From: Bacteroidota bacterium
GTDB lineage: Bacteria > Bacteroidota > Bacteroidia > Palsa-948
Assembly (NCBI GenBank): GCA_023251675.1
Contig: JAHEYJ010000012.1
Span: forward strand, 1 to 39,047
Reading direction: 5' to 3'
DNA: 39,047 nt
The position numbers and the translations under genes were made by a program. The notes under the pieces are model-generated. The model did no database searches and was not told the DNA's origin. It saw nothing but the letters and a program-made list of their open reading frames with translations. Shown in pieces: positions 28,153-39,047 of the stretch; the stretch's first letter is position 1; every line of letters begins with the position of its first letter.

Positions 28153-28245
28153 TTCCTTTTACTTCCTTTGACAATCAAAATAGGATAAAAAACAAATATT
28201 TCTCAGGCAACCATTTATTAATCCTGCGTCTTATAATCAGATGCG

Positions 28246-28821
28246 ATGACTGAAACCGGAAAAGAGAAGATCGAGGCATTGATCGAAGGGTGCATAAAAG
28301 GCGACCGGAACAGCCAACACGTTCTTTACAAGTTGTATTACGGAAAAATGCTCGGTGTTTGCATGCGTTATGCAAAGGATCATGAAGAAGCAAGAGATAT
28401 ACTTCAGGAAGGATTCATAAAAGTATACTCCAATATTTCGGATTTTGGCAAAAGCGGGTCATTTGAGGGTTGGGTAAGAAAAATTATGGTGAATACGGCC
28501 ATTGATACTTACCGGAAAAACAAACAATCCATCTTTCAGGTTGACTCAGACTATGTTGATGCAAATGCGGAAGTAATAGAAGATGAAAATGAAAGTGAAG
28601 AATACAATGGCATTAATCCGGCCCAGATAATGGAGGCAGTGCAAAAACTTTCTCCGGCATACAGAGCGATCTTTAATATGTATGTAGTCGATGAGTTCAC
28701 ACATAAAGAAATAGCAGCGCAATTGGGAATCAGTGAAGGAACATCAAAATCAAATTATTCAAAAGCAAAAGCGAATTTGAAAAGAATGCTGGAAGATAAA
28801 ATAAAAAAATTTCAGCATTAA
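28246..28821 (+). CDS. ECF-type RNA polymerase sigma factor
   Basis: A 191-residue sigma-70 family factor of the extracytoplasmic function class. Region 2 is seen as YGKMLGVCMRYAKDHEEARDILQEGFIKVYSNI...FEGWVRKIMVNTAIDTYRK. A short acidic linker follows (VEDENESEE-like). Region 4 reads AVQKLSPAYRAIFNMYVVDEFTHKEIAAQLGISEGTSKSNYSKAK. It is followed after 13 bp by a membrane-anchored protein that is a plausible cognate regulator, and then by three large surface proteins. The start is the ATG at 28246; an ATG five bases upstream meets a stop after two codons. Confidence 0.93.
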   Translation: MTETGKEKIEALIEGCIKGDRNSQHVLYKLYYGKMLGVCMRYAKDHEEARDILQEGFIKVYSNISDFGKSGSFEGWVRKIMVNTAIDTYRKNKQSIFQVDSDYVDANAEVIEDENESEEYNGINPAQIMEAVQKLSPAYRAIFNMYVVDEFTHKEIAAQLGISEGTSKSNYSKAKANLKRMLEDKIKKFQH

Positions 28822-28834
28822 TATTTTATAGGAA

Positions 28835-30115
28835 ATGAAAAACAAGTTTGAACAGAATATAAAATCATCACTGGAATCGTACCAAGCCGGTTTCAATCCT
28901 GCTGATTGGGCGGATATGAATACGCGCCTGGATTCGGCTTTTGGTAAGCCAGCTAAAATTTCAAGAACAGGTAAAAACATTTTAATAGCCGCTTCTGTTA
29001 TAGCAGTTGCCGGGTTGATCTATTATTTCAGCGCTTCATCAAATAAAATGAAGGATGCTGCAAAAACCGCCGTTGAAAACCCGGTTATCGTAAAACAGCA
29101 GCCTGCTGAAAATGTAAATCAGCCGGTTGAAGAAAAAAACAGCTCATCAACACAGAAAGAAAATAATTCAGCGGCGGTTAATGCTTCTGATAAAAATTCT
29201 CTGGTTCAGGATCAATCAGCAGAGAAAAGAACAGCGCCTCAGGGAAAAGTGGAAGCTCCGGCGGAGAATAAGCAAACCCCTGTTCAGGAAAATAATCCGA
29301 ATGAAAAACCAGCGCTGCCTTCAGTTATAAGTCAGCAAGCAGATGCCGGATCGGTTCTGAAAGCAGGTTTTCACGCCGATATAAATAAGGTTTGCGAAGG
29401 AATACCGGTACAATTTTCGGCGGATGAAAACAAGATCCCATGTACGTATAAATGGTTATTTGGCGACGGCGAAACCTCGGTTGAGCAAAATCCGAAACAT
29501 GTATTTAAGTCTTCCGGGACTTTCTCTGTCAAGCTCCGCCTCACTTCACTTGCCGACAAAAAATCGGATGAACAGAAAAATAATATTACCGTTGCGGGTG
29601 CCCCGTCCACCGACATTACTTACCGCCCGGATGAAGACAATAAGCTCGCCTTCCGGTTTGATGCCGGTGCAGACAAAACAACGGAACTAAAATGGGATTT
29701 CGGTGACAGGAAAACAGCTTCCGGTCAAAACCCGGAACATACGTTTGCTCAATTCGGAACCTACAAAGTGATTTTAACAGCCAAAAATAATTCAGGATGC
29801 ATAACCACTGTCAGCAAAGAGGTGAAAGTGGAAAATAAATTATTTGCTCCTAATTCTTTCACGCCCAACGGAGACAATGTGAATGATACCTGGATGCCTT
29901 CATTTGATGACAACTGCACTTTTACCCTGACCGTTTTTGACGGATCCAGCAATGTGGTTTATTCAACTTCCGACAGAAATTCACCCTGGGATGGAATGAA
30001 CCCTAAAACCGGTTCCGTTGTAAAGGAAGGAGATCTCTTTACCTGGAAGGCAGTTGTAAAAGAAAGTAACGGAGAACTATCAACTCATTCTGGGAAAATA
30101 GTTATCAGTAAATAA
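28835..30115 (+). CDS. Membrane-anchored PKD protein with type B sorting domain, possible anti-sigma partner
   Basis: A 426-residue protein with an unusual layout. Residues 1-47 are a hydrophilic N-terminal segment (FEQNIKSSLESYQAGFNPADWADM) resembling the cytoplasmic part of proteins encoded next to sigma factors in Bacteroidota. One membrane helix follows (~48-66). A low-complexity Lys/Glu/Asn/Pro-rich spacer (~70-165) comes next. Then come two PKD domains, with YKWLFGDGETS and LKWDFGDRKTA. The C-terminal ~90 residues have FAPNSFTPNGDNVNDTW and WDGMNPKTG, the gliding-motility/T9SS type B domain (CHU_C). There is no cleavable signal peptide, so it is likely an inner-membrane protein with a large periplasmic part. 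The anti-sigma role is inferred from position and topology only. Confidence 0.8.
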   Translation: MKNKFEQNIKSSLESYQAGFNPADWADMNTRLDSAFGKPAKISRTGKNILIAASVIAVAGLIYYFSASSNKMKDAAKTAVENPVIVKQQPAENVNQPVEEKNSSSTQKENNSAAVNASDKNSLVQDQSAEKRTAPQGKVEAPAENKQTPVQENNPNEKPALPSVISQQADAGSVLKAGFHADINKVCEGIPVQFSADENKIPCTYKWLFGDGETSVEQNPKHVFKSSGTFSVKLRLTSLADKKSDEQKNNITVAGAPSTDITYRPDEDNKLAFRFDAGADKTTELKWDFGDRKTASGQNPEHTFAQFGTYKVILTAKNNSGCITTVSKEVKVENKLFAPNSFTPNGDNVNDTWMPSFDDNCTFTLTVFDGSSNVVYSTSDRNSPWDGMNPKTGSVVKEGDLFTWKAVVKESNGELSTHSGKIVISK

Positions 30116-30165
30116 AATTTATATAAATCGCCAAAGACCTTATATAATATTCCCAACATCCCCCT

Positions 30166-33100
30166 ATGAAACAAAAAAATCACCTTCCTCAACATTGTAC
30201 TTTGTTCGCCAGAACAGGGGCATATCATTTTATTTTCAGGAGAATATTTTTTCTCCTTGCTTTTTCATTATTATTTTTCAGGGCAATGGGCCAGGACCCT
30301 GTTACCCCGCAGGAAGTCAATCCGGGTTCTAACAAAAATCTGATTTGGGAGGATGAAGGGATCTTCCGTAAACAGATGAAAGCGAATGGGCTTTCTGAGG
30401 CGGTTATCAATAAATTAGTGGAAGACAGGATCGCGTTAGCTAAAACCGGAAGACAAATAAAATGGAATTCGTTAATGAAACTTGGAAACAGTGTGACACC
30501 GGTTCCGCATGCTGCTTGCAGTGATATGGGAGGAGAAAGCGGATGGGGCGCTTGGCAGGCACAGACCGGTGATTATATGTACGACATATTTGGTGGAAAT
30601 TCTACGTTGACATGGGGAGCCATTGGCGCTCCGCTTGCAGCGCCCCGGTTTAATCTTACCAGCGGCGCCGGGATTGATGCCTGTACGCCGGGAGCTGCTG
30701 CCGGAGCTCCTTCCATTCCTGTTGTTGCTCCCAACTTTGGCTCTGCTTCCATCCAGTTAGGGGAGATACAAACCAATGGTTCATTAGGAGGATGTAATTT
30801 AGGATGTGCAGAGCAGATTATTTATCCGCTTACAGTCACTGCGATGGATACCAATTTTCTGTATGCCTATGCTTTTGTTCTGGAAAATCCTGGCCATACG
30901 ATTCAAGATCAACCCTACGTAGAATTTAAAATTCTCGATGCAAGCGGAGATACATTGCCTTGTTCCTACCAGAAATATCATGGCAGTTCCAATCTTCCCG
31001 GCTTTTATACTTCCAGCTGCAATGTAAATTCTGCATCTATTTATAAACCATGGACTACAGTTGGAGTTAATTTATCAAGTTATATCGGCCAGGCATTGAC
31101 TGTTGTAATTACCAACGTGGATTGTTCCCAAGGAGGTCACTTTGCGCAATCGTACTGGGATTTCTCCTGCGGTGTACTGACCACCAATCCTTCTTCTTAT
31201 TGTCAGGGAAATGCTGTTACGATTGATGCACCGGTCGATCCGCTCATCGGATATACCTATCAGTGGTATCAAAACGGAGGCCCTTATACAGGCGCCCCCG
31301 GCGCAACCGGCCCGACTATTACTCCTTTTCCGGTTCCAGGGGATACATTTGCTGTTGATGTGATTCAGCCCTCCGGATGTAATTTTCATATTATATATGT
31401 TCCGACACCTATGTCGATCACCCCGAATTTCACCAGCACTGTAAATTGTGGAGTGGTAAATTTTACTGACCAAACTACAACACCCAATGGTTCTCCGATA
31501 ACTGCCTGGAACTGGACATTCCCGAGTGGAACGCCTGCCTCTTCTACGGCTCAGAATCCGACCGGAGTTACATTTCCCCCAGGAACGTATTCTGTAACAC
31601 TCGTTGCAACTTCCCAGTCCGGCTGCGTTGGTACCAGTATTCATGTAATTACAGTTACCGGAATGCCACAGGCTGTTTTTTCAAACGTACCGGTATGTGC
31701 AGGCCTCTCTACTCAGTTTACGAATAGTTCAGTTGCTCCTGCAGGCGATCCTATCGTTTCTACTAACTGGAGTTTTCCCGGTGGAAACCCTGCAACATCT
31801 ACTGCGTCTAATCCAACCGTAGTTTTTCCTGCAGGAAACTACACCGCAACGCTGACAGTGACCACTCAATCGGGTTGTACTTCTACGGTATCTCAGCCAG
31901 TTGTGGTTAACCCGCTTCCGGTTGCAAACCTCAGCGGAAATAATGTTTGCTTTAATAACGTGAATAGTTTTACCGATCTGACAACCGGAAATAATACGGT
32001 CACTAACTGGAGCTGGAATTTTGGTGATGGAAGCGCACTCAATACAACCCAAAATCCTACACATACTTATTCAAATCCCGGAACGTATACGGTTTCGCTG
32101 ATCGTTACTAATAATTTTGGATGTAAAGACACAAATAAAACGACGGTAGTAATCAATCCACTCCCTGTGGTCAACTTCAGTCTGGTGCCGGTATGTTATC
32201 ACGACAATACGTGTTTCACCGATCTCTCAACGGTTAGCCCCGGCACTATTTCATCCTGGAGCTGGAACTTCGGCGACCCTAATTCAGGAGCAAATAATAT
32301 TTCCAATATTCAGAATCCCTGTCATGTGTATACCGGTCTTGGCCCCTACGCTGTTATCCTGACAGTTACAACTGACAGCGCCTGCCAAAGTACCATAAGC
32401 TTACCGGCAACGGTCAATCCTTTGCCGGTGGCGGGAATAAGTGTGAACAGTGTTTGCCTGAACTCAAATACCAGTTTTACCGATGCTTCTATTTCACCAG
32501 CTGGGGATCAGATCACCGCATGGAACTGGAATTTCGGAGACGGTTCAGCCAATGCCACGCAGCAGAACCCGATGCATATGTATACGACGGCAGGAAGTTA
32601 TACGGCCACACTCATTGTCACCACACAAAAAGGATGTAAGGACACGGCACAGATCCCGCTGGTTGTTTACAATCCGCCGGTAGCCAATTTCTCAGCGCCC
32701 AAAGATGGATGTTCACCGGTCGTAAACAATTACATGGATCTGTCCACATCCGCCAGCGGTTCGGTCAGCAGCTGGCTATGGACATTTTCCGGGGGAAGTC
32801 CGTCAAGCTCAACATCCCAGAACCCTCAGAATATTCTTTATGTAGCTCCCGGAAGCTACAGTGTAACGCTGATCGCCACAACCAACTTCGGCTGTAAAGA
32901 CACGATCACCCTTCCGATGGTGCAGGTATATCCCTGGCCTGGCGCAGAGTTTTGTGTGGCACCGCAGCAGGCGCCGGCAACATCCCCGGTATTTAATTTC
33001 TGCGACCTGTGGTCTTCAGATGTAACGCAATGGTCATGGAACTTTGGAGATGGATCTGCATTGGACAGCAGCAATACGGATCCGGTTCATTCGTATTCTG

Positions 33101-33558
33101 CAACGGCAACCGCCAATGATTTTTATTCCTATACGATTTGTCTTAATGTGAAAAACCAGTACGGATGTTGGGATTCCATATGCCATACGGTAGAATTGCT
33201 GCCGGAATATGAATTTTATATTCCCAACTGCTTTACACCGAACCAGGATTATACGAATGAATTCTTCTTCGGCAAATGCCGCGGCGTAAAGGAATATAAT
33301 ATCTGGGTATTCGACCGTTGGGGAAATTTGCTTTGGGATTGTCACAAAGAGGATAAGAACACGAACTGGGATAACCTGGGGCAGGACGGATTATCGTCGG
33401 CCTGCAAATGGAACGGAAAAGTGGTGCAGGGTGGTTTTGATATGAGCGGAGGCAGCGGGCAACTTGCGCAGGAAGATGTGTATGTATGGAAAGTCAGGCT
33501 CACGGATATTTTTGACAAGAAACATATGTATATAGGACATGTGAGTATAGTTAAATAA
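30166..33558 (+). CDS. Large PKD-repeat surface protein with T9SS type B domain (paralog 1)
   Basis: A 1130-residue predicted surface protein. After a signal peptide with a long basic n-region (core IFFLLAFSLLFF) and a spacer, residues ~112-337 form a conserved domain starting ACSDMGGESGWGAW and including FNLTSGAGIDACTPG, LENPGHTIQDQPYVEF, YKPWTTVGVNLSSYIGQ and a SQGGHFAQSYWDFSC end. An Ig-like module follows (~338-415), then seven PKD modules of ~83 residues (starting near 420, 502, 585, 668, 754, 839 and 926), most with W.WNFGD and ending NPLP. The C-terminus (~1014-1130) is a type B domain, with FYIPNCFTPNQDYTNEF and FDRWGNLLWDC. It starts 50 bp after the membrane PKD protein. Large parts are nearly identical to paralogs 2 and 3. 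Confidence 0.88.
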   Translation: MKQKNHLPQHCTLFARTGAYHFIFRRIFFLLAFSLLFFRAMGQDPVTPQEVNPGSNKNLIWEDEGIFRKQMKANGLSEAVINKLVEDRIALAKTGRQIKWNSLMKLGNSVTPVPHAACSDMGGESGWGAWQAQTGDYMYDIFGGNSTLTWGAIGAPLAAPRFNLTSGAGIDACTPGAAAGAPSIPVVAPNFGSASIQLGEIQTNGSLGGCNLGCAEQIIYPLTVTAMDTNFLYAYAFVLENPGHTIQDQPYVEFKILDASGDTLPCSYQKYHGSSNLPGFYTSSCNVNSASIYKPWTTVGVNLSSYIGQALTVVITNVDCSQGGHFAQSYWDFSCGVLTTNPSSYCQGNAVTIDAPVDPLIGYTYQWYQNGGPYTGAPGATGPTITPFPVPGDTFAVDVIQPSGCNFHIIYVPTPMSITPNFTSTVNCGVVNFTDQTTTPNGSPITAWNWTFPSGTPASSTAQNPTGVTFPPGTYSVTLVATSQSGCVGTSIHVITVTGMPQAVFSNVPVCAGLSTQFTNSSVAPAGDPIVSTNWSFPGGNPATSTASNPTVVFPAGNYTATLTVTTQSGCTSTVSQPVVVNPLPVANLSGNNVCFNNVNSFTDLTTGNNTVTNWSWNFGDGSALNTTQNPTHTYSNPGTYTVSLIVTNNFGCKDTNKTTVVINPLPVVNFSLVPVCYHDNTCFTDLSTVSPGTISSWSWNFGDPNSGANNISNIQNPCHVYTGLGPYAVILTVTTDSACQSTISLPATVNPLPVAGISVNSVCLNSNTSFTDASISPAGDQITAWNWNFGDGSANATQQNPMHMYTTAGSYTATLIVTTQKGCKDTAQIPLVVYNPPVANFSAPKDGCSPVVNNYMDLSTSASGSVSSWLWTFSGGSPSSSTSQNPQNILYVAPGSYSVTLIATTNFGCKDTITLPMVQVYPWPGAEFCVAPQQAPATSPVFNFCDLWSSDVTQWSWNFGDGSALDSSNTDPVHSYSATATANDFYSYTICLNVKNQYGCWDSICHTVELLPEYEFYIPNCFTPNQDYTNEFFFGKCRGVKEYNIWVFDRWGNLLWDCHKEDKNTNWDNLGQDGLSSACKWNGKVVQGGFDMSGGSGQLAQEDVYVWKVRLTDIFDKKHMYIGHVSIVK

Positions 33559-33593
33559 TAGAATAAATAATAAATAAAATAACCGGCTCCTAA

Positions 33594-33623
33594 TTGATAC
33601 AACCAGCTATTGTACTATATTTA
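33594..33623 (+). promoter_or_regulatory. Candidate promoter for paralog 2
   Basis: TTG (33594-33596), a 19-nt spacer and TATATTTA (33616-33623), one mismatch from TAnnTTTG. The predicted start of transcription is about 30 bp before the ATG at 33661. This would let paralog 2 be expressed separately from paralog 1. Confidence 0.45.
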
Positions 33624-33660
33624 AGCATATAAATTACGTTTACGAAAAAAGATTCAACCT

Positions 33661-36600
33661 ATGAATAAATTTTACTCTCCCCTTGTGCACTCTGTTTCTC
33701 TTTGTGCATTTCTCTTTTCGCTTAATTTGATACAAGCACAGGAAACTCCTCAAACGGCAGGAGGTAAGGGGAAAATGATCAGGTTAGACGGTGCCGTTTT
33801 CAATGAAACTACTTTACGTGAACAAATGAAGAATGATGGCGTTCCCGGGCCTTTGATCGATAAGTTTATTGCTGAAAGAAAATTAATAAATACAAGAGAT
33901 GCGCAATTACCTCAATTGAGAAACAACAACAATAATCCGATTCCTTTCGCCGCTTGCAGCGATATGGGTGCTGAAAGCGGATGGGGTTCATGGGTGGCAA
34001 CTCCCGGCACTGCTAATTCGGGCAGCCAGGCATGGGGAACTCCTATGGCCTCTCCTGCAGGTCCCCGGTTTAATTTAACAACCGGCGCCGGAGTAGATCC
34101 TTGTACTCCAGGAACTGCTGCCGGTAGTCCATCTATTCCCGTTGTTGCGCCCGGATTTGGAAACACGTCTATCCAGATAGGGGAGCCGCAAACGAATGGT
34201 TACGGAGCAGAAAAATTGGTTTATCAATTAACCGTTACAGCACAGGATACAAATTTTATTTTTGCATATGCAATGGTGCTTCAGGATGCAGGGCACTCGG
34301 TCAGTGATCAGCCTTTTGTGGATCTTTGCATCAGAGATCAGTCGGGCAATCCTGTTCCCTGCGGATGTTTCAGGTATACAGGCGGACCTAATCTTCCTGG
34401 TTTTTATACGGCAACTTGCGGTATCAGTACCTACTACAAACCCTGGACGATCGTAGGGGTAAACTTATCTGCCTATGTAGGCCAGACCCTCACCATCACT
34501 ATATTGAATGTGGATTGTGCTCAGGGTGGTCACTGGGCTCATTCCTACTGGGATTTTACTTGCAAACCTCTTGGCGGTTCTGCTTCTGCATTTTGTGTCG
34601 GGCAGCCCGCATCCATTTGTGCTCCCTATGATCCGGCAATCAGTTATACCTATCAATGGTACCAGAATGGAAATCCATATACAGGGCCACCCAGCGCAAC
34701 ATCACAATGTATTACGCCTTCTCCATTGCCAGGAGATACTTTTTCTGTTGATGTAAAACAGCCATCAGGATGTAATTTTCACATGACATATGTTCCGGTA
34801 CCGATGACCATTACCCCTAATTTTACATCAACGGTTAATTGTGGTACGGTGAACTTTACAGATGTTAGTACTACTTCTAACGGAAGTCCTGTCGTAGGAT
34901 GGAACTGGAGTTTTCCCGGCGGCACCCCTTCTACGGCCACCACTTCGGCAGCAACTGTGACTTACCCGGCAGGTACCTACACGGCAACTTTGATCGTTAC
35001 TTCTCAGACCGGGTGTACAGATACTATTTCTTTACCTGTCAATGTTTTGGGATTGCCTGTTGCTGCTTTTTCAAATGTTCCTGTTTGTGCGGGACTTCCA
35101 ACTACTTTCACCAACTCTTCAACTGCTGCTGCAGGCGACCCCATTGTTTCTACTGCATGGCTTTTTCCGGGCGGCACCCCTGCGACATCAACTGCGTCAA
35201 GCCCTACAGTCGTTTACCCTCCCGGAAATTATACAGCAAATCTCACAGTGACAAGCCAGCAAGGATGCACGGCTACGGTAACTCAGCCGGTTGTAGTTAA
35301 CCCCCTGCCGGTTGCAAACCTCAGCAGTCCTAACGTTTGTTTTAATAACGTGAACAGTTTTACCGATCTGACAACCGGAAATAATACAGTCACTAACTGG
35401 AGCTGGAATTTTGGTGATGGAAGCGCACTCAATACAACCCAAAATCCTACACATACGTATTCCAACCCCGGAACGTATACGGTTTCGCTGATCGTTACTA
35501 ATAATTTTGGATGTAAAGACACAAACACTATTACTGTAGTTGTCAATCCGCTGCCTGTGGTCAATTTCAGTTTGGTGCCTGTTTGTTATCATGACAATAC
35601 GTGTTTCACCGATCTTTCATCAGTTACCCCGGGTGCTATCTCTTCCTGGAACTGGAACTTCGGCGACCCTAATTCAGGAGCAAATAATATTTCCAATATT
35701 CAGAATCCCTGTCATGTGTATACCGGTCTTGGCCCATACGCTGTTATCCTGACAGTTACAACTGACAGCGCATGCCAAAGCACCATAACTTTGCCGGCAA
35801 CTGTAAATCCTTTGCCGGTGGCCGGGATCAATGTGAACAGTGTATGCTTGCATTTTAATACCAGTTTTACCGATGCTTCTATCGCACCAACAGGTGATCA
35901 GATCACTTCATGGAACTGGAATTTCGGGGACGCTACTGCCAATGCCACGCAGCAGAATCCATTGCATATGTACGCTGCTGCCGGAAGTTATACGGCCACG
36001 CTTATTGTTACCACACAGAAAGGGTGTAAGGATACTGTATCTGTACCGCTTGTAGTATATGATCCGCCGGTAGCCAATTTCTCAGCACCCAAAGATGGAT
36101 GTTCGCCGGTTGTAAACAATTACATGGATCTGTCCACATCCGCCAGCGGTTCGGTCAGCAGCTGGCTATGGACATTTTCCGGCGGAAGTCCGTCAAGTTC
36201 AACATCCCAGAACCCGCAGAATATTCTTTATGTAGCTCCCGGAAGCTACAGTGTAACGCTGATCGCTACAACCAACTTTGGTTGTAAAGACACGATCACC
36301 CTTCCGATGGTGCAGGTATATCCCTGGCCTAACGCCGAGTTTTGTGTGGCTCCGCATCAGGCGCCGGTAACCTATCCTCTGTTTTCTTTTTGTAACCTGT
36401 GGACACCGAATCCGGGCGTGACAAGCTGGGTTTGGGATTACGGTGACGGCACACCGCAAGATAGCGGGAACAGTGTAAATAGTTTGAACATGAGCCCCAC
36501 ACATTCCTATTCGTTTGTTGCTACGAATAATGATTATTATTCATTTAATGTTTGCATCAATATAAAAAATCAGTACGGATGCTGGGATACCGTATGTCAT

Positions 36601-36972
36601 ACCGTTGAATTGCTGCCGGAGTATGAATTTTATATTCCCAACTGCTTTACACCGAACCAGGATTATATCAATGAATTCTTCTTCGGCAAATGCCGCGGCG
36701 TAAAGGAATATAATATCTGGGTATTCGACCGTTGGGGAAATTTGCTTTGGGATTGCCACAAAGAGGATAAGAACACGAACTGGGATAACCTGGGGCAGGA
36801 CGGATTATCGTCAGCCTGCAAATGGGACGGGAAGATAGTTCAGGGAGGAATGGACATGAGCGGGGGCAGCAAGCAGTTTGCGCAGGAAGATGTGTATGTA
36901 TGGAAAGTCAGGCTCACGGATATTTTTGACAAAAAGCATATGTATGTAGGGCATGTAAGTGTTGTCAAATAG
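33661..36972 (+). CDS. Large PKD-repeat surface protein with T9SS type B domain (paralog 2)
   Basis: An 1103-residue paralog of the preceding gene with the same order of parts: signal peptide (cleavage near IQAQ), the ACSDMGAESGWGSW domain (~97-302), one Ig-like module, seven PKD modules and a type B C-terminal domain (~986-1103). The N-terminal domain differs clearly from paralog 1, and modules 1, 2 and 7 are divergent. PKD modules 3, 6 and the C-terminal domain are almost identical at DNA level, including silent positions. Module 4 is a mosaic: its second half matches paralog 1 closely while its first half does not. The gene has its own candidate promoter and a strong terminator downstream. 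Confidence 0.88.
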   Translation: MNKFYSPLVHSVSLCAFLFSLNLIQAQETPQTAGGKGKMIRLDGAVFNETTLREQMKNDGVPGPLIDKFIAERKLINTRDAQLPQLRNNNNNPIPFAACSDMGAESGWGSWVATPGTANSGSQAWGTPMASPAGPRFNLTTGAGVDPCTPGTAAGSPSIPVVAPGFGNTSIQIGEPQTNGYGAEKLVYQLTVTAQDTNFIFAYAMVLQDAGHSVSDQPFVDLCIRDQSGNPVPCGCFRYTGGPNLPGFYTATCGISTYYKPWTIVGVNLSAYVGQTLTITILNVDCAQGGHWAHSYWDFTCKPLGGSASAFCVGQPASICAPYDPAISYTYQWYQNGNPYTGPPSATSQCITPSPLPGDTFSVDVKQPSGCNFHMTYVPVPMTITPNFTSTVNCGTVNFTDVSTTSNGSPVVGWNWSFPGGTPSTATTSAATVTYPAGTYTATLIVTSQTGCTDTISLPVNVLGLPVAAFSNVPVCAGLPTTFTNSSTAAAGDPIVSTAWLFPGGTPATSTASSPTVVYPPGNYTANLTVTSQQGCTATVTQPVVVNPLPVANLSSPNVCFNNVNSFTDLTTGNNTVTNWSWNFGDGSALNTTQNPTHTYSNPGTYTVSLIVTNNFGCKDTNTITVVVNPLPVVNFSLVPVCYHDNTCFTDLSSVTPGAISSWNWNFGDPNSGANNISNIQNPCHVYTGLGPYAVILTVTTDSACQSTITLPATVNPLPVAGINVNSVCLHFNTSFTDASIAPTGDQITSWNWNFGDATANATQQNPLHMYAAAGSYTATLIVTTQKGCKDTVSVPLVVYDPPVANFSAPKDGCSPVVNNYMDLSTSASGSVSSWLWTFSGGSPSSSTSQNPQNILYVAPGSYSVTLIATTNFGCKDTITLPMVQVYPWPNAEFCVAPHQAPVTYPLFSFCNLWTPNPGVTSWVWDYGDGTPQDSGNSVNSLNMSPTHSYSFVATNNDYYSFNVCINIKNQYGCWDTVCHTVELLPEYEFYIPNCFTPNQDYINEFFFGKCRGVKEYNIWVFDRWGNLLWDCHKEDKNTNWDNLGQDGLSSACKWDGKIVQGGMDMSGGSKQFAQEDVYVWKVRLTDIFDKKHMYVGHVSVVK

Positions 36973-37021
36973 CGTAGATTATTTATGGTAACATGAACGA
37001 ATTAGAATATAGTCAGCAGAT

Positions 37022-37056
37022 AAAAGGAATATCCTCAAGGGTATTCCTTTTTTATT
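37022..37056 (+). terminator. Strong intrinsic terminator after paralog 2
   Basis: AAAAGGAATATCC (37022-37034) pairs with GGGTATTCCTTTT (37039-37051) around a TCAA loop and is followed by TTATTTT. It separates paralog 2 from paralog 3, so paralog 3 needs its own promoter; TAAATTTTG at 37063-37071 is a loose -7 candidate. Confidence 0.85.
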
Positions 37057-37102
37057 TTGAAATAAATTTTGTTTTTATACGTATAACTAACTTTTTTACG
37101 CC

Positions 37103-39047
37103 ATGAGAAAAGTTGTTGCACAATCGCCTCTCTTGCTGATTGTAGTTTTTACAATTACAACATTCTGCTCTTTACACCTGAATGCGCAGGAGAAAAAAAA
37201 ATCAACCTTTCCCTCCAGCCGGTCAGGGCAGCCGCCGGTAGTCAATGCCTCCTGCGGTGATATGGGCGCTGAAAACGGATGGAGTGTTTGGACGGCAAAG
37301 GAAGGATATCACCAGTATCTCAGTGCTAATAATGAATACCCTATTTTTTTTGGTTCAATATCTCCCGCATCTTCTCCTGTACGATTTGCCATTACTACCG
37401 GAGCAGGAGTAGATGCCTGTACTCCTGGTGGAGGGGGGCCGCCCATTCCGGTTGTTTGTCCCGGATTTGGAAATTCATCTATTCGGATCGGGGAGCCTTT
37501 GACAAATGGGATTCAGGGCAATTGTTATAGTAATGGTCCATACCCTGCCCCCGGGGTCGGAGCAGCAGGAAACGGATGTTCAGAGCAACTCTCTTATATT
37601 TTTCCTGTGGGTGCTGCCGATACAAATTTTATTTATGCTTTTGCTGTTATTGTTGAGAACCCACCCAGCGGGCATACCGATGTAGAAGCTCCTTTTGCAG
37701 AAATATATATTCTTGCCCCCAATGGCGATACCGTAACTTGCAGTCATCAGAAATATACCGCCGATTTAGCCGGAGGTACTCTTCCCGGGTTTTATTCGTC
37801 AAACTGTCCACCCACATCTGCCGGCGCTACGGTAACCTATAAGCCATGGACCTATGTAGGTGTAAATCTTACTAACTATTTAGCTCAAACACTTACAGTC
37901 GTAATTACAAATACAGATTGTGCGTTAGGCGGACACGCTTGCTGGTCCTACTGGGATTTTCAATGTCCTCCTGTCGGCAGCAGTGCGCCGCCTTATTGCC
38001 TGGGAAATGCGACAACACTTACCGGACCGCCTTCAGATCCCAATAATCCTTATACATATACGTGGTATCAGAATGGAACAATTTATACAGGACTTCCCAG
38101 TTCTTCATCCGTAAGCATCACTCCCACTCCGCAATTAGGAGACACATTTGCTGTACAGGTTCATCAAACTTCGGGTTGTGATTTCTGGATTCCTTATATT
38201 CCGACTCCCATGTCGGTAACGCCCAATTTTTCCTATTCAGCTGTAGGAGGATGCGGCAGCGGCGTACTGAACTTTACGGACTTGAGTACAGCTCCTAACG
38301 GAGCTCCAATGGTGGCCTGGAACTGGAGTTTTCCGGGAGGGACCCCTTCCACATCGACCGTACAAAATCCATCAAACATTTCTTATCCTCCCGGCACATA
38401 TACCGTTACTTTAATAGTTACTTCTCAGAATGGATGTATTGATACAATTGCAATTCCGGTTACGCTAACCGGCACTTCACCACCTGTCGCTATTGCCACT
38501 ACAGGCCCGGTATGTTTTAATAATCCTACACATTTTACGGATCTATCTACAGGCAGTACGCCCATTACTTTCTGGAACTGGAATTTTGGAAATGGGAACA
38601 CGTCCACTCAACAGAATCCATCGCAGACTTATGCAAGCGCCGGAACTTTCTCAGTTACATTGATCGTGACTGATGCTACCGGTTGCAAAGACACAGTGTC
38701 TTTATTAGCGGTTGTTAACCCTTTACCTGTGGTCAACTTCAGTCTGGTGCCGGTATGTTATCACGACAATACGTGTTTCACCGATCTCTCAACGGTTAGC
38801 CCCGGCACTATTTCATCCTGGAGCTGGAACTTCGGCGACCCCTCTTCAGGAGCAAATAATATTTCCAATATTCAGAATCCCTGCCATGTATTTACGGGTC
38901 TTGGCCCCTACGCTGTTATCCTGACGGTTACAACTGACAGCGCCTGCCAAAGTACCATAAGCTTACCGGCAACGGTCAATCCTTTGCCGGTGGCGGGAAT
39001 AAGTGTGAACAGTGTTTGCCTGAACTCAAATACCAGTTTTACCGATG
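37103..39047 (+). CDS. Large PKD-repeat surface protein (paralog 3), C-terminus beyond window
   Basis: An open frame from ATG 37103 to the right edge (648 codons, no stop). It begins MRKVVAQSPLLLIVVF with a signal peptide (cleavage near LNAQ). The conserved N-terminal domain follows (SCGDMGAENGWSVW, TTGAGVDACTPG, YKPWTYVGVNLTNYLAQ, CALGGHACWSYWDFQC), longer than in the paralogs by some loop insertions. Then come an Ig-like module, two distinct PKD modules (NFTDLSTAPNGAP... and HFTDLSTGSTPITFWNWNFGNG), a third (YHDNTCFTDLS) and the start of a fourth. The third and fourth correspond to modules 4 and 5 of paralog 1, so the module set differs from the paralogs. A type B C-terminal domain is expected outside the window. 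Confidence 0.87.
   Translation, partial: MRKVVAQSPLLLIVVFTITTFCSLHLNAQEKKKSTFPSSRSGQPPVVNASCGDMGAENGWSVWTAKEGYHQYLSANNEYPIFFGSISPASSPVRFAITTGAGVDACTPGGGGPPIPVVCPGFGNSSIRIGEPLTNGIQGNCYSNGPYPAPGVGAAGNGCSEQLSYIFPVGAADTNFIYAFAVIVENPPSGHTDVEAPFAEIYILAPNGDTVTCSHQKYTADLAGGTLPGFYSSNCPPTSAGATVTYKPWTYVGVNLTNYLAQTLTVVITNTDCALGGHACWSYWDFQCPPVGSSAPPYCLGNATTLTGPPSDPNNPYTYTWYQNGTIYTGLPSSSSVSITPTPQLGDTFAVQVHQTSGCDFWIPYIPTPMSVTPNFSYSAVGGCGSGVLNFTDLSTAPNGAPMVAWNWSFPGGTPSTSTVQNPSNISYPPGTYTVTLIVTSQNGCIDTIAIPVTLTGTSPPVAIATTGPVCFNNPTHFTDLSTGSTPITFWNWNFGNGNTSTQQNPSQTYASAGTFSVTLIVTDATGCKDTVSLLAVVNPLPVVNFSLVPVCYHDNTCFTDLSTVSPGTISSWSWNFGDPSSGANNISNIQNPCHVFTGLGPYAVILTVTTDSACQSTISLPATVNPLPVAGISVNSVCLNSNTSFTD
38727..39047 (+). 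repeat. PKD cassette nearly identical to paralog 1 (32165-32485)
   Basis: Ungapped alignment to 32165-32485 shows about 8 differences in 321 bp by eye, whereas the DNA just upstream of this point is clearly diverged. The similarity continues to the window edge. This is a coding duplication or conversion tract, not a mobile element. Confidence 0.85.

Follow-up and report, generated by a model that had tools for sequence, protein, structure and literature searches.

In Bacteroidota, surface proteins are exported mainly by the type IX secretion system (T9SS), and how synthesis of its cargo is matched to export is largely open. This question is raised by a stretch of 39,047 nt (the window) from a Bacteroidota bacterium (Palsa-948; assembly GCA_023251675.1, contig JAHEYJ010000012.1, forward strand). 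Here, the gene of an extracytoplasmic function (ECF) sigma factor is followed by the gene of a membrane protein (the partner) with a cargo-like tail, and then by genes of large adhesins with PKD domains. Does the partner act as an anti-sigma factor that ties transcription of the adhesins to their export? The answer that we favor, with a probability of roughly 0.6, is that the two proteins form a cognate ECF sigma/anti-sigma pair, autoregulated and controlling T9SS-exported PKD-rich adhesins, in which the anti-sigma factor docks its C-terminal domain (CTD) toward the outer membrane. The features of the locus are as follows.

28206..28230, + strand: candidate ECF-type promoter GGCAACC-N14-CGTC (-35/-10), 15 nt upstream of the ATG of the sigma gene
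28246..28821, + strand: ECF sigma factor, 191 aa, regions 2 and 4 (Pfam and NCBIfam)
28835..30115, + strand: putative anti-sigma factor (the partner), 426 aa (domains, fold model, N-terminal homology, and adjacency to the sigma gene)
30166..33558, + strand: PKD adhesin 1, 1130 aa, seven PKD stretches, type B CTD with DRWG (domain search)
33661..36972, + strand: PKD adhesin 2, 1103 aa, six PKD stretches, type B CTD (domain search)
37103..39046, + strand: PKD adhesin 3, at least 648 aa, open frame with a PKD match; the gene is truncated by the contig end at 39047

The sigma factor has sigma-70 regions 2 and 4 without region 3, which is the ECF layout (Pfam Sigma70_r2, E = 1.6e-15, and Sigma70_r4_2, E = 1.6e-16; NCBIfam sigma70-ECF, E = 8.3e-31), and its gene is separated from that of the partner by 13 nt. 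The partner contains a single hydrophobic segment (residues 47-69), two PKD stretches, and a C-terminal CHU_C match of 35.2 bits (cut-off, 27). A Pfam search up to E 0.1 found neither FecR nor another anti-sigma domain in it, and a FecR-type partner was rejected on this ground. In the AlphaFold2 model (single chain, alignment of 34 sequences), with a mean predicted local distance difference test score (pLDDT) of 77, a cytoplasmic segment (residues 1-43) with short helices at 4-14 and 22-35 is followed by a membrane helix (44-68) and a disordered tether (~70-169, pLDDT <50 over most of the stretch). Two PKD folds (179-254 and 261-332), which in the model are similar to those of surface adhesins such as GhpA of Aureispira, lead to a CHU_C-like beta domain at the C-terminus (338-424). 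As judged from this layout, without a signal-peptide predictor, the partner has no N-terminal cleavable Sec signal peptide, because a 43-residue segment lies ahead of its sole helix. The open reading frames, the 13-nt gap, and the order of short cytoplasmic segment, one helix, two PKD domains, and CTD, with large PKD proteins downstream, were thus as given in a preliminary description of this DNA.

The same pair recurs throughout the class. A profile of the N-terminal segment matched 124 of 198 genomes, which are mostly metagenome assemblies, and an ECF sigma gene lay directly upstream on the same strand for all but one of the 60 matches outside the genus of the host whose surroundings were inspected. 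When the sigma factor alone served as the query of an independent search, 51 of the 79 loci that had a downstream gene gave partners ending in CHU_C (CHU-type), and the carriers included named isolates of Lishizhenia, Brumimicrobium, and Crocinitomix. Pooling gave 158 distinct sigma-partner pairs, which are related sequences and thus non-independent events: 98 with CHU-type partners and 60 with others, the latter including a few that are unrelated neighbors or that run off a contig or locus end. Two PKD domains were detected in 40 of the CHU-type partners, one in 32, and none in 26, some of which contain what resemble divergent PKD domains. The gap between sigma and CHU-type partner genes was mostly between -29 and +23 nt (mode, -4), so that translational overlap is typical. 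In 38 loci (e.g., L103, L112, L122, L123, L137, and L152), the pair has a divergent malate-dehydrogenase-like gene on its upstream side, which was judged uninformative.

What stays constant beside the sigma factor is the cytoplasmic segment. Profiles built from the segments of one architecture only were tested on the other, and at E<1e-3 they recognized 51 of the 60 other (barrel or short) partners, all 98 CHU-type partners, and none of the shuffled controls, which leave shared ancestry in place. A tryptophan is kept in 98/98 CHU-type and 55/60 other partners. Partner architecture also tracks the tree of the sigma factors, with 8 changes compared to 48 when the labels were shuffled. Together, the cross-architecture homology and this tracking indicate that the cytoplasmic segment is the constant element and the outer end a variable module. 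That the partner has the topology of a sigma-factor partner, as had been proposed, is therefore supported by its N-terminal homology, as far as such homology can predict it. In some partners, the tryptophan motif occurs in more than one copy (L116 and L117, in genomes G097 and G159, and similarly L215, L217, L231, L232, and L235); those of L116 and L117 are without a clear membrane helix.

Within the genus, seven genomes were available including the host (G000), and these are the sole representatives of their order in the sample. The gene order of sigma factor, partner, and at least one PKD adhesin is kept in 5 of the 6 relatives. The sixth (G005) contains no match to the window partner, and has a second, paralogous pair that is followed by an 847-aa PKD protein. 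The partner of this second pair has CHU_C and one PKD domain (in G003, PKD was undetected). It adjoins a third pair, whose partner has a membrane helix and no recognized folded outer domain; the two pairs stand in tandem between aspartate-semialdehyde-dehydrogenase-like and uvrC-like genes (L023:2448-7407 on contig C100 of G000, and L051-L055). Two further pairs of the host genome have partners with OMP_b-brl-like barrels at the C-terminus (weak matches that stay slightly below the Pfam cut-off), and the five sigma-partner pairs of this one genome have the N-terminal segment in common. A chance neighborhood is ruled out by the recurrence in the genus and across the class. The preliminary description had named loss of adjacency in relatives as one of two findings that would speak against it; the search for the same order in other genomes found the neighbors together instead.

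The DNA upstream of the pair points to its targets. GGCAACC-N14-CGTC, which has a single exact match within the window, precedes the sigma gene in invariant form in all six genus members that have the pair, whereas the second pair of the genus has GCAAC-N16-GCATC instead. Upstream of the CHU-type sigma genes of the class, GCAACC was found in 73/98 cases (3.2 expected) and the bipartite motif in 61/98 (1.8 expected), the expectations being from mononucleotide shuffles of related sequences. Two promoter flavors, with -10 CGTC and -10 CATC, seem tied to different sigma/partner subtypes. The seven genomes of the genus were then scanned with GGCAACC-N13-15-CGTC and, as a control, with the reversed pattern. 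Total matches were no higher than in the control (38 vs 36); as for placement, the match was intergenic and upstream of a gene in 15 of 29 inspected motif loci, compared to 2 of 29 control loci. In G005, which is without the window pair, there was no intergenic match, as all three matches were inside genes.

The five relatives with the pair contain 17 intergenic sites other than that of the sigma gene itself, and 14 of these precede unlinked genes for PKD and/or T9SS-tail proteins, at 10-240 nt before such a gene or before a small gene directly ahead of one. Ten sites stand directly before genes with type B tails (L296, L297, L299, L301, L302, L303, L307, L308, L309, and L310), one does so through a small first gene (L305), one precedes a cut PKD protein (L298), and two precede type A-like tails (L304 and L311); several of these tails were recognized by reading the sequence end without a cut-off, the type A-like ones by eye only. 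The other three sites are before other genes (L300 and L306) or at a contig edge (L313). In the host, the inspected CHU_C gene starts gave just one further strong site, a one-mismatch form of the motif ahead of a 760-aa PKD/CHU_C gene on contig C230. In L096, a homologue of this gene (46% identity over 208 aa) stands immediately behind the sigma-partner pair. The motif had 38 matches in six genomes of other families, where the control had 11, and 29 of the 30 motif loci inspected were intergenic before a gene; ~19 of these genes have a signal-peptide-like start, and the sigma gene of the pair itself is also among them. The motifs suggest that the sigma factor transcribes tagged adhesins, and it is most likely autoregulated. 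Sequence comparison thus supports the pair, its conservation, the N-terminal homology, and the promoter motif with its placement. The proposal that sigma factor, membrane protein, and adhesins act as one unit gains from the conserved adjacency and from the motif before unlinked T9SS-tail adhesins.

No such motif was found upstream of the adhesin starts of the window at 30166, 33661, or 37103. Separate promoters for these genes are therefore disfavored, and a single operon is more likely. The overall identity between adhesins 1 and 2 is 72%, and their C-terminal halves contain long near-identical stretches, which suggests recent duplication or gene conversion.

The tail of the partner differs from that of the predicted cargo. 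In the window partner, the TIGR04131 score is 31.7, under the cut-off of 35, whereas CHU_C is over its own cut-off; the RWG motif is absent. This motif is found in 0/98 partner CTDs compared to 59/63 cargo CTDs. The partner CTDs retain the other type B consensus (PNGDG.N, WDG, GxYxW, and C-terminal GxI/VxL) and the terminal position, and by this comparison the partner tail is a systematically altered version of the putative adhesin export signal. Without RWG, the tail may either bind and remain unprocessed or have lost its role in the T9SS. The claim that the partner joins the topology of a sigma-factor partner with the export signal of its targets is thus supported by homology in its first half and needs this qualification in its second.

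We propose the following mechanism. The two-helix cytoplasmic segment would hold the sigma factor, one inner-membrane helix would anchor the anti-sigma factor, and the tether of ~100 residues with the two PKD domains would bring the type B CTD-like domain toward the outer membrane. Across CHU-type partners, 133-294 residues (median, 260) separate the membrane helix from the CTD, which is sufficient for crossing the periplasm. At the outer membrane, the CTD-like domain would most likely dock on a PorP/SprF-like barrel or on the T9SS translocon. Binding of type B CTDs to PorP-like barrels of the outer membrane has been reported (PMC9143113), and the host genome encodes SprA and ten PorP-like barrel proteins, several of which adjoin CHU_C genes; the partner could therefore gain in trans the barrel that Dma proteins (see below) have in cis. 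A change in docking, such as competing real cargo, surface contact, or loss of export, would lead to release or degradation of the anti-sigma factor, and the free sigma factor would then transcribe its own operon and the unlinked adhesin genes from GGCAACC-N14/15-CGTC promoters. Inhibition of the sigma factor, the docking, and the nature of the signal are the steps that we infer.

Several observations weigh against this mechanism. With RWG absent from 98/98 partners and the window CTD below the TIGR04131 cut-off, the T9SS may not read the partner tail; moreover, the membrane anchor should prevent ordinary release, and no CTD-specific receptor for the partner tail was identified. SprA was detected in 191 of the 198 genomes, and this near-universal occurrence leaves a test of co-occurrence between the T9SS and CHU-type partners with little power. 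Only 26 of 93 next genes are same-strand PKD/CHU genes, even with the genus counted in; beyond the genus, most loci have something other than an adhesin as the next gene. The motif sites outside the genus also include some before other exported or envelope genes, further ECF sigma genes, or a sugar-transferase-like gene, so that the predicted regulon outside the genus consists of exported proteins in a wider sense.

Three other explanations account for parts of these data. The span from helix to CTD and the GhpA-like PKD fold of the model would also suit a surface receptor, whose PKD-CTD part is taken through the outer membrane by the T9SS and whose N-terminus remains cytoplasmic. Such a protein would span both membranes and sense external contact or ligands, much like a Dma protein with an adhesin head replacing the barrel. 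We consider this unlikely, as 26 of the 98 partners are without a PKD match (some perhaps with divergent, undetected PKD domains), the CTD is altered relative to cargo, and we know of no description of SprA threading a membrane-anchored substrate. The contrast in RWG between partners and cargo would also be explained if the CHU_C-like domain were an ordinary periplasmic Ig-like module without a tie to the T9SS, with the anti-sigma factor sensing envelope stress in the periplasm. The retained CTD consensus and terminal position argue against this, as does the predicted regulon of the genus, which consists mostly of T9SS-tail proteins; in addition, both SprA-negative genomes examined that have a partner (n = 2) have a non-CHU one. 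This explanation thus appears quite improbable.

Finally, the PKD and CTD domains that the partner has in common with the downstream adhesins could mean that it is no anti-sigma factor, and merely the first, membrane-retained PKD protein of an adhesin operon transcribed by the sigma factor. In that case, however, the constant part next to the sigma gene would not be expected to be the cytoplasmic N-terminus, which also occurs with barrels or with no folded domain, nor would a cytoplasmic segment be expected in T9SS cargo; translational overlap with the sigma gene is also typical. We regard this possibility as very unlikely. The docking anti-sigma factor remains our preferred reading. Because the motifs suggest that the sigma factor turns on adhesins with such a tag, export itself may give the cell a means to regulate its surface coat. 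An extension is more doubtful, although conceivable: a widespread class of Bacteroidota anti-sigma factors might use a modified T9SS tag as sensor and compete with real cargo for the T9SS or its PorP-like barrels. Transcription of the surface coat would then be set directly by export capacity or by surface occupancy. A recurrent anti-sigma factor with a cargo-like tail, next to a sigma factor that apparently transcribes cargo genes, makes the matching of cargo synthesis to export directly testable.

Among known systems, no CTD-bearing anti-sigma factor turned up in the literature searched, most subscription papers being outside its reach. The preliminary description contrasted the locus with FecR-type systems, which likewise combine an ECF sigma factor with a membrane-anchored partner tied to an outer-membrane process; the window pair is followed by PKD adhesins and not by a TonB-dependent receptor. 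The contrast holds insofar as the partner is without a FecR domain, but FecR is not the sole known alternative. By published description, Dma1 and Dma2, which work with the Das sigma factors of Bacteroides thetaiotaomicron, resemble the window partner in the adjacent sigma gene, the cytoplasmic segment, the one membrane helix, the long disordered tether, and the folded C-terminus (PMC13088901). In Dma proteins, the N-terminal segment binds the sigma factor and the C-terminus is a barrel (PMC13088901). The window partner is predicted to share the single helix and the long tether, whereas neither Pfam nor the AlphaFold2 model gave a C-terminal outer-membrane beta-barrel, and it was therefore not assigned to the Dma proteins despite the common plan. 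Its predicted N-terminal plan is that of Dma, with PKD domains and CTD in place of the barrel. The two barrel-bearing pairs of the host genome are themselves Dma-like. The targets also differ, being outer-membrane vesicle or polysaccharide utilization locus genes for Dma and predicted T9SS-tail adhesins for the window pair. A barrel-type pair followed by a PKD protein of ~370-400 aa was observed in L025:2900-7878 (where this protein is lipoprotein-like), L109, L125, L145, L151, and L153, in several cases with a larger PKD protein next (with a type A-like tail in L025); these loci may represent another type of sigma/anti-sigma operon that includes T9SS cargo. As this comparison suggests, Dma proteins would form a single branch of a broader modular family in which the outer end can be exchanged.

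Control of T9SS genes by ECF sigma factors has precedents in other arrangements. In the PorA-PorXY-SigP system of Porphyromonas gingivalis, the influence of a T9SS CTD protein on the ECF sigma factor in control of T9SS genes runs through a two-component system; a CTD-bearing anti-sigma factor is absent, and PorA is restricted to Porphyromonas (PMC7712824). The SM6 ECF promoters of Flavobacterium psychrophilum resemble those of the window pair in a -10 CGT box before T9SS genes and in one sigma/anti-sigma pair, whereas their targets are the genes of the T9SS machinery (PMC9723704).

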